Shown here: positions 1-55,071 of the stretch, piece after piece | How positions within the stretch are numbered: position 1 is the stretch's first letter | How the letters are laid out: every line of letters begins with the position of its first letter | NCBI GenBank assembly: GCA_030531205.1 | Contig: JAUNOC010000009.1 | Coordinates: forward strand, 1-57,522 | Direction of reading: 5' to 3' | Source: Phascolarctobacterium sp. | GTDB taxonomy: Bacteria > Bacillota > Negativicutes > Acidaminococcales > Acidaminococcaceae | Length of the DNA stretch: 57,522 nucleotides | The notes under the pieces: generated by a model | Told to the model about the DNA's origin: nothing | The model's input: only the letters and a program-made list of their open reading frames with translations | Databases searched by the model: none | Position numbers and translations under genes: made by a program

Positions 1-430
1 TTTCATTCAAAACAGCAAAATCTAATTTTTATCGTTACGTAACGTTATGTAAATGTTACGTAACGATAAAATTCAATTTTCACGCTTTTAACTGCGTTTT
101 GTTGAAGAGCGATTTTAGTGATAAAAATGCTTTTAGTGTGAAAAGGACTTTTATTTTCATTCAAAATCATAAAAGTAAAAAGTTTTAATCGCGAGATTTT
201 TCAGAAAAATCTCGCGATTAAAAAAAGATTGTTTCACGATTTTTTTTAGTTTTAAGTGAAAGAATTTTTTTGAAAGTAAAGTGGAGAGTGAAAGTAAAAA
301 TATAAAAGCGTCAGAATGATATCAGACCATAGTTAGTATGATATCATTTTGACGCTGAAGCAAAAAGCAAAACGGAAAATTTTTCTGTGGGTGTTAATTT
401 CACTATGAGATTGAGCGTATAAAAAAATAA
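1..430. repeat. Hairpin array A: conserved scaffold with variable inverted repeats
   Basis: Non-coding AT-rich region with three long inverted repeats: 27-43/55-71 (17 bp perfect), 183-201/205-223 (19 bp perfect, 3-nt loop) and 307-324/339-356 (18 bp with one G-T pair). The spacers between them (about 72-182 and 224-300) match the spacers of array B at 29494-29605 and 29653-29720 closely, but the stem sequences are unrelated to those of B. Positions 351-430 resemble the scaffold at 54863-54960 in array C, with the C hairpin missing. The window starts inside the array, so its left end is not seen. No gene is apparent here. Confidence 0.8.
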
Positions 431-29116: not shown

Positions 29117-29757
29117 TTGAAAAATATTTTGTATGTAACCTACTTTTTGCTATTTTTGTGACTCCTTTTATATATAGGAAGACATAATGCGTAATTTGCA
29201 ATGCGTAATTATGGTAAGATGTTCCTGTGATTAAAACTTTTATTCCTTTGTCGCAGGCAGGGAAATACCTGAATTTTCTGAGGGAAATTCAGGTATTTCC
29301 CCAGTTTAGAATTTTACCGGACTTTTTCTCTTTGTTGTTGCAAGTCGGGAAATTGGGTAATTATCCAAGGGAAATTACCCAATTTCCCTGTTTTTATTTT
29401 TGTTTAGCTTTTTACTCATCGTTGAAAAGCATTCAAAACAGCAAAATCTCATTTCTAAAATGGCGACATTTTGATATAAAATGTCGCCATTTTGAAATTC
29501 ACTTTTCACGATTTTAACTGTGTTTTGTTGAAGAGTAATTTTAGTGATGAAAATGCTTTTGCTGTGAAGAAAACTTTTATTTTTGTTCAAAATCATAAAA
29601 GTTAAAATTTCCACTGTCGACATTATCGCTGAAAATGTCGACAGTGGAAATTTATTGTTTCACGATTTTTTCATTTTTGGATGAGAGAATTTTTTTGAAA
29701 TGAAAGTGAAGAGTGGAAATAAAAACGCTTGCGATTGGGTTTCGTAAGCGTTTTTAT
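29117..29757. repeat. Hairpin array B
   Basis: Five inverted repeats: 29260-29276/29285-29301 (17 bp perfect), 29347-29362/29373-29388 (16 bp perfect), 29457-29472/29478-29493 (16 bp perfect), 29606-29624/29634-29652 (19 bp perfect), 29721-29730/29746-29755 (10 bp). The left part (29117-29410, including the first two hairpins) aligns with array C at 54429-54715. The right part aligns with array A, but with different stems. A TTCCTGTGATTA unit is at 29208-29234. The last hairpin overlaps the stop codon of the XRE gene. An ORF at 29227-29517 crosses three of the hairpins and is not considered real. Confidence 0.85.
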
Positions 29758-30062
29758 TCTGTTAAATCTTCAATGACGGCGGCGATGTTATCAAACTTTC
29801 TACTACTTAAATTCTCTAATCGTTTTATTATATTTCGCATTCGTTCCGGTTTAGCAATAGACGTGTTAAAAAATTCTGCGGGTGTAATTTTGAAGTAATC
29901 ACAGATAAACAAGAATGTGGACATGGAAGGCATGGCTTTGCCGAGTTCAATGCGGTTGATGTAACTTGGGTTTTGCCCTAATGATAAACTCATATCTCTT
30001 GCTGAAACACCTTTTTGTGTTCTTAATTCATTTAAGCGTTTTCTAAAATCTTCTTCAAACAT
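29754..30062 (-). CDS. XRE-family transcriptional regulator
   Basis: A 102-residue regulator. The N-terminal helix-turn-helix (FRKRLNELRTQKGVSARDMS, then LSLGQNPSYINRIELGKAMP) is followed by FLFICDYFKITPAEFFN, typical of short XRE proteins. The start at 30062 is chosen for GGAGGT seven bases upstream; an in-frame ATG at 30083 is less well placed. Divergent from the membrane-protein operon at 30211 and likely its regulator. Confidence 0.85.
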   Translation of the reverse strand: MFEEDFRKRLNELRTQKGVSARDMSLSLGQNPSYINRIELGKAMPSMSTFLFICDYFKITPAEFFNTSIAKPERMRNIIKRLENLSSRKFDNIAAVIEDLTE

Positions 30063-30131
30063 ATAAATTACCTCCATAAACATTATATGTTGTTTGTCTA
30101 AATGTTTAGAGCATTCTTTGTCTTATATATC

Positions 30132-54428: not shown

Positions 54429-55071
54429 TTTGAAAAAATATTTTATCTGTAACCTACTTTTTACAGTTTTTGGGACTCCTTTTATATATAGGGGCAGATA
54501 AAATTAGTAATGAGTAATTAGTAATTGTGGTAAAAAGTTCCCGTGATTAAACTTTCATTCCTTTGTCGCAGATAGGGAAATACCTGAATTTTCCGAGGGA
54601 AATGCAGGTATTTCCCCAGTTTAGAATTTTGCCGGACTTTTTCTCTTCGTTGTCACAAGTCGGGAAATTGGGTAATTTTCTTTGGGAAATTACCCAATTT
54701 CCCTGTTTTTATTTTCCTTTCGCTTTTCACTCAGCGTTAAAAAGCGTTTGGAACGACAAAATCTCATTTATAATCTTACGTAAGATGTGCTTAATCTTAC
54801 GTAAGATTATAAATCGCTTTTCATGCTTTTAACTGCGTTTTTATGACGAGTTAGAATAAAAAAGCGTCAAAAAGTAAAACTGGAAAAATTTTCCGTGAGT
54901 GTCAATCTCATATTGAGATTGTTCTAATCTCAATATGAGATTGGACGTTAAAAAAATTAATTAGCACGTAAGTGCTAATTTTGTTTTCTGATTGAAATCA
55001 TAAAAATTATTTTGTGGCGAAGGACGAAGGTGAAATCTTATATAAGAGTTGGTGAGGTCTTATATAAGATT
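54429..55071. repeat. Hairpin array C
   Basis: Inverted repeats: 54575-54591/54600-54616 (17 bp, one mismatch), 54662-54677/54688-54703 (16 bp perfect), 54766-54786/54794-54814 (21 bp perfect), 54903-54920/54926-54943 (18 bp perfect), 54959-54967/54972-54980 (9 bp), 55034-55047/55058-55071 (14 bp perfect). The left part aligns with array B; the third stem is at the same place as the third of B and the first of A, but its sequence is unrelated. Several arms are themselves palindromes, e.g. ATCTTACGTAAGAT and AATCTTATATAAGATT. A TTCCTGTGATTA-type unit lies at 54523-54550. Confidence 0.85.

Follow-up and report, generated by a model that had tools for sequence, protein, structure and literature searches.

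Neisserial intergenic mosaic elements (NIME) are arrays that combine repeated-spacer (RS) units with dRS3 palindromes of the form ATTCCC(N8)GGGAAT; these palindromes are targets for integration of the Nf1 prophage and are thought to promote recombination (PMC3898611). REP/BIME sequences are extragenic pairs of oppositely oriented palindromes and are known targets of insertion sequences (PMC1525189, PMC2817692). At the level of mutation, template switching between inverted repeats leads to homogenised arms and inverted spacers (PMC8604942, PMC8794818), and near-palindromic sites are known as insertion hot spots of IS30 (PMC9333248).

The stretch of DNA analysed here, referred to as the window, comprises 57,522 nucleotides and belongs to a genome (G000) of 1,330,714 bases in 15 contigs. 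Its three arrays, A, B and C, and every stem quoted for them in a preliminary description were recovered from the sequence. A genome-wide search with array B, the tail of array C and array A placed the number of array loci, and thus the recurrences of the AT-rich scaffold, at about 33 (loci are given below as contig and position). Most sites lie inside long contigs, so that contig-end artefacts are not their cause. The arrays are intergenic, about 200-900 bp in length, and composed of AT-rich spacer families and palindromes. Their units follow a colinear order across loci, H1-H2-H3-H4-(H5)-X-Y-Z, individual loci being sub-runs of this common order with deletions between related units. In the window, the following features were assigned:

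27..71, + strand: array A, H3, GTTACGTAAC allele
183..223, + strand: array A, H4, TCGCGA allele
307..356, + strand: array A, position X, AATGATATCA allele (other allele, ATTATATACACTT)
29117..29256, + strand: array B, 5' scaffold S0, including a dispersed repeat of about 50 bp
29260..29301, + strand: array B, hairpin H1, GGGAAATACCTGAATTT...AAATTCAGGTATTTCCC, found at the same position at C2, C8, C10 and C1:54575
29302..29346, + strand: array B, spacer S1, 98-100% identical in the closest copies
29347..29388, + strand: array B, hairpin H2, allele GGGTAATT, followed by a T-rich tract; the sole site of this array that the scan marked as terminator-like
29389..29456, + strand: array B, spacer S2
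29457..29493, + strand: array B, H3 double palindrome, allele TGGCGACA (AAAATGGCGACATTTT-gatat-AAAATGTCGCCATTTT), centres 21 bp apart
29494..29604, + strand: array B, spacer S3, of which about 110 bp are in common with array A, 87% to A
29605..29653, + strand: array B, H4 double palindrome, allele TGTCGACA, left arm re-templated from the right arm
29654..29717, + strand: array B, spacer S4
29718..29758, + strand: array B, hairpin H5, AAAACGCTTGCGA...TCGTAAGCGTTTT, with related hairpins in congeners too
54575..54616, + strand: array C, H1
54662..54703, + strand: array C, H2
54766..54814, + strand: array C, H3, TTACGTAA allele
54903..54943, + strand: array C, position Y, AATCTCATATTGAGATT allele, centres about 22 bp apart
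55034..55071, + strand: array C, position Z, AATCTTATATAAGATT allele, centres about 22 bp apart

The other allele of H2, TAGTCATT, occurs at C2, C8:42695, C10:28422 and C10:97708. The spacer common to arrays A and B, previously described as close to identical over about 110 bp, is in fact 87% identical over about 103 bp. The repeat of about 50 bp within S0 (GTAAGATGTTCCTGTGATTAAAACTT type, window 29185-29236 and many further loci) is scattered through each of the genus's three genomes, independently of the arrays.

As an intergenic mosaic repeat, the arrays behave like NIME and REP/BIME, but they lack a defining feature of each and belong to neither class. They resemble NIME in being intergenic arrays of spacer families and short palindromes with a variable part, and with about 200-900 bp of repeated spacers and palindromes they fall within the definition of a NIME array (200-2700 bp). 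However, dRS3 elements are single 20-bp units with constant ends and a variable 8-bp centre, whereas the palindromes here are double and two turns apart, their flanking symmetric bases varying while the central CG (H3/H4) stays; neither the dRS3 palindrome nor its constant ends were found among the unit lists. With REP/BIME the arrays share their extragenic location and paired inverted palindromes, but a REP class has one consensus, whereas here many cores occur at one scaffold position. REPs also go with Y1 (RAYT) transposases, for which a search with PF01797 in the window's own genome gave no match, the controls being positive; we regard the REP/RAYT reading as weak. In that structure outlasts sequence, the arrays also recall integron attC sites, which are recombination sites recognised by structure, with R''/R' boxes and an integron integrase. 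When contigs of viruses and genomes (G000 left out) were scanned with the scaffold pattern, chance-level matches only were returned, and the literature searched for such a repeat contained nothing matching beyond NIME and REP. The part that appears to be new within the reach of these searches is an exchangeable, phased double-palindrome cassette with a repertoire common to two species.

For the analysis of the stems, sites were cut out by their flanking spacers alone, which avoids the selection of hairpins by their hairpins. With the stems thus ignored, a palindromic repeat of differing sequence was present at 18/18 H3 and 13/14 H4 sites, mostly inverted and in a few cases direct; the outcome that would have refuted the preliminary description, scaffold matches lacking inverted repeats at the stem positions, was therefore not obtained. 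Pairing of each arm with its own partner was 0.93 (H3) and 0.94 (H4), compared to 0.42 and 0.40 with partners permuted among copies and to maxima of 0.63 and 0.74 in 2000 permutations; the units in this comparison were pre-selected as hairpins, and the unbiased figure is the scaffold-defined site count. Copies with near-identical flanks and different cassettes were found in G000 and in a second species, in agreement with the proposal that whole palindromes are swapped, presumably by recombination as considered below. Between C10:97708 and array B, flank identity at H2 is 0.96 and cassette identity 0.75; between the H3 sites at C6:26227 and C13:152240, both adjoined by a RelB-type antitoxin gene, the flanks are 89% and the cassettes 55% identical. 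Averaged over all H3 pairs, flanks (0.70) and cassettes (0.71) do not differ, because many pairs have the same allele and distant flanks have diverged, and the excess of flank over cassette identity is confined to close pairs (29/300 at H3, 27/45 at H4, 4/28 at H2, none at X).

The alleles themselves are not unrelated to their counterparts, as had been stated, but draw their cores from a limited, common repertoire. At H3 and H4 the arms are built on T-NN-CG-NN-A with variable NN (alleles TTACGTAA, TGACGTCA, TCACGTGA, TAACGTTA, TGTCGACA, TGGCGACA and TCTCGCGA), and the centres at X, Y and Z are of AT type (GATATC, CATATG, TTATATAA). Each arm is itself near-palindromic, which hairpin pairing alone does not require. 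Of the 33 distinct units with such centres in G000, 26 have their arm centres 21-22 bp apart, whatever their sequence; in G002 the centres are 20-22 bp apart in 19/21 units. Hairpins with shuffled arms yielded 0.8 of 78 units at 21-22 bp on average, with a maximum of 4 in 200 trials, as compared to the 26 observed. This distance equals two turns of B-DNA. The arms are direct rather than inverted repeats at C12:90047, C14:30289 and C14:31006, the copies at C8:20146 and C6:110956 have a single palindrome, and one copy in G002 (C108) has three, 20 bp apart; the palindrome, and not the hairpin, may therefore be the unit. With palindromic arms phased two turns apart, the pairs of operator-like sites proposed in the preliminary description are the best functional reading. 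The occurrence of several cores per position argues against a single sequence reader, and the TGGCGACA allele, in which the hairpin is perfect and each arm's own symmetry is broken, fits a constraint on the hairpin better than an operator. The constant centre spacing could in part be inherited from a common ancestral unit.

In some units, one of the two cores shows a change from CG to TG/CA (GACATC/GACGTC and GTTGAC/GTCGAC; G002:C145 near 5400, L043 near 1500), as would be expected if the central C were methylated and deaminating. Within the window (1-57522), observed/expected ratios are low for GATC (0.18), CGCG (0.18), CTAG (0.30), AGCT (0.33) and TCGA (0.34), a strong tetranucleotide avoidance that resembles genomes with several restriction systems. 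TCGCGA does not occur in about 200 kb of coding sequence, where just 0.8 occurrences are expected. A restriction-site link of the cores was considered and rejected: CGCG and TCGA are avoided, but so are GATC, CTAG and AGCT, which are not cores.

Traces of how stems change are preserved in two forms. The H4 units of C6:26057, C12:71228 and C13:152376 combine the left arm aaaagtaaaaagtttcgg, as in other copies, with a mismatched right arm, GTGGAAATTT; H4 of array B has the same right arm GTGGAAATTT and spacer, with the left arm rewritten to AAATTTCCAC, the exact complement of the right arm. The stem AAAATGGCGACATTTT encloses the spacer gatat at C1:29457 and C10:149487, and its reverse complement, atatc, at C9:25317, C10:97818 and C11:29481. 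Both the rewritten arm and the identical stems with inverted spacers bear out the suggestion that one arm templates the other, and both are the known footprints of quasi-palindrome correction by template switching, in which arms are homogenised and spacers inverted (PMC8604942, PMC8794818). They also support a purely mutational account, in which the hairpins have no function, template switching perfects quasi-palindromes, recombination among copies spreads them, and symmetry is a by-product of replication. This account is further helped by the stems' imperfection: self-complementarity, formerly taken to be perfect throughout, is perfect in 42 of the 78 distinct hairpins and imperfect in 36. 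Quasi-palindrome correction explains the upkeep of symmetry, but not the conservation of cores and spacing across loci and species. At H3 and H4 the central CG and the T/A at ±4 are kept, the spacing is fixed at about two turns, and the core repertoire is common to species with mostly different scaffolds; a neutral process predicts no conservation of core, repertoire or spacing unless all were inherited, which counts against it. We consider the mutational account doubtful, though a serious contender. Transfer of whole cassettes between loci, which the H2 and H3 swaps need, would be gene conversion between spacers, as suggested by mosaic copies in one genome.

Core-pattern pairs with AT-rich borders numbered 51 in G000 (control 10) and 48 in G002 (control 14), which belongs to the same genus but is another species; the sister species G001 had 3 (control 3), and the assemblies of G001 and G002 are fragmented, often broken at array repeats. 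A comparison of 59 genomes of the family showed a clear excess of TNACGTNA pairs in this genus only, and double cores show no excess outside it. In G002 the scaffold, ACAAAAATGCGTTC-(41 bp)-CTTTGACTTTT, is near-invariant; its inserts are all exactly 41 bp long and come in five versions (TCACGTGA, TTACGTAA, TGTCGCCA, TAACGTTA and TCGCGCGA), which are of the same kinds as in G000. In their alignment 99.2% of cells pair, compared to 37-46% with slid partners, and 9/18 pairs change on both sides, with 24 double-changed cells, 0 one-sided changes and no G-U intermediates; 0/500 shuffles scored as high for covariation, although with just seven distinct rows, several of them related, these counts are not independent events. 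The spacers of G002 and G000 mostly do not match, bar some stretches of 33-60 bp; longer matches proved to be an insertion sequence. The exchange of one shared palindrome set in both species favours interchangeable DNA sites that proteins recognise over RNA hairpins.

An RNA-level role, as 3'-UTR hairpins (terminators, mRNA stabilisers or RNase III sites) with selection on pairing only, would account for the strict covariation, for the terminator-like H2 and for the location of the arrays, which lie 3' of a same-strand gene in 28/31 cases. This last figure may reflect a general bias of the genome, as neighbouring genes in the array stretches are co-directional in 160/180 pairs. In the region of array B, 1 terminator-like site (H2) was found vs 0.8 expected, and the scan for GC-rich stems with a T run gave no match at its H3 and H4. 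Searches of the window against Rfam 15 at gathering score returned tRNAs only, with no array match, and at a loose threshold only generic, sub-threshold hairpins were added. Among the mismatches in the stems, G.T (13) is not in excess over A.C (16). RNA hairpins moreover do not need the palindromic arms, and some copies are in direct orientation. Thus the RNA structures envisaged earlier retain little support, with neither an Rfam match nor a G-U bias nor one-sided intermediates, and we hold this reading to be unlikely.

The genes upstream of the arrays were searched for a common function and none was seen; a position 3' of co-directional genes of unrelated functions is odd for operators. The start of a Cas9 gene (HNH_4, Cas9_a, RuvC_III; L130:4569-7001, G000:C14:32068-34500) lies directly 3' of two tandem arrays. 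Two DUF559 genes (L109:3645-4046 and L125:2547-2948), 86% identical, are each located directly upstream of an array, with differing array stems, and two RelB-family antitoxin genes (L106:2628-2921 and L129:3256-3588), 83% identical, each directly downstream of one; the latter pair points to a segmental duplication that included the array. A small minus-strand gene of HTH type (XRE/Cro; window 29754-30083) abuts array B, and a locus in G002 (L036) has a similar layout of hairpin, H5 and apparent XRE-type gene. The pheT-DUF1858-plsX junction of G001 has neither an XRE/Cro-type HTH gene nor an array.

An IS30-family element of 1092 bp, encoding a 328-aa protein with matches to HTH_38 and rve (the latter below its cut-off), is inserted at approximately C10:74319-75410 exactly in the loop of a hairpin of the TGGCGACA allele, with a 3-bp GAT duplication. 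Seven copies with a readable left end were found in G000 and G002, of which one lies in, and four lie 14-18 bp from, a double-palindrome hairpin. The 94 listed hairpins, each taken with margins of 20 bp, cover an estimated < 1% of the genome, which places 5/7 copies far above chance. The exceptions, C12:66202 in another repeat and a copy in G002 (C86) apparently in a gene, count against the cassettes as landing sites. The reading frame is intact in the copy at C10:74330-75313 and broken (split matches, stop) at L111:3262-4350 (G000:C6:236261 onwards) and C12:66202. The insertions show recognition of the hairpin sites at the level of DNA. This agrees with the near-palindromic targets of IS30 (PMC9333248) in that the element enters or neighbours such palindromes; the 3-bp duplication lies within the 2-3 bp typical of IS30-family hot spots. 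Such targeting need not be the purpose of the sites, because insertion sequences also target REPs (PMC1525189). What distinguishes the palindromes described here is that they form a dispersed allelic series within a repeat scaffold. We know of no IS30 hot spots organised in this manner.

The same insertions could be taken to mean that the arrays move as non-autonomous elements, with an IS30-like or other transposase recognising the hairpins and spreading the arrays. At two orthologous junctions in G001, 3' of pheT-DUF1858 and of a LivF-like ABC transporter gene, no array is present (PheT and ABC assignments by Pfam, other junction gene names by sequence and neighbours), so that the arrays there were either gained in this lineage or lost in G001; also, the one sister genome without detected IS30 is poor in core pairs. 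However, no common array ends, such as the fixed ends of a MITE, are seen in the module lists, the copies being variable sub-runs of one order, and no Y1/RAYT transposase accompanies them. As the insertion sequence lies inside the hairpin, the hairpin is its target and not the end of an element. We judge the spread of the arrays by such a transposase very unlikely. The idea of a mobile repeat that regenerates its hairpins is borne out by half: the two empty junctions are in its favour, but no mobility enzyme could be tied to the arrays.

In our estimate there is about an even chance that we are dealing with intergenic mosaic repeats, specific to this lineage, whose double operator-like cassettes are exchangeable and putatively recognised as DNA. 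In this reading an array consists of AT-rich spacer modules alternating with exchangeable cassettes of about 37-50 bp, and each cassette is a double dyad of two near-identical palindromes of about 16 bp, mutually reverse-complementary, with centres 21-22 bp apart. Homologous recombination (gene conversion) via the near-identical spacers may move cassettes between loci, whose cassettes are seen to differ where flanks are alike. Fold-back template switching during replication would restore their symmetry, in line with the arm rewriting and spacer flips observed. The cassettes would be kept because putative dimeric DNA-binding proteins recognise the paired sites on one face of the helix; core class and spacing are in fact kept, and the cores recur in the second species. 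For IS30-family transposases the cassettes would serve as landing sites, much as near-palindromic hot spots do for IS30.

A more far-reaching version, which we consider rather unlikely, is that the genus keeps its own library of about eight double operator cassettes as interchangeable parts, with a putative cognate DNA-binding protein for each, and that loci switch partner by swapping a cassette of about 41 bp via conserved spacers. If true, protein-DNA specificity would be exchanged outside genes by a modular system of cassettes. From a two-turn spacing that stays fixed while the cores change, one would predict a protein family whose site specificity can change. The arrays are a clear example from nature of paired DNA arms that change jointly, without one-sided intermediates, in one genome and in a sister species. 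They raise the testable questions of whether covariation without a mismatch stage arises by cassette exchange or by template switching, and of whether apparent RNA covariation in repeats may be a DNA-level effect that misleads the discovery of RNA structures.
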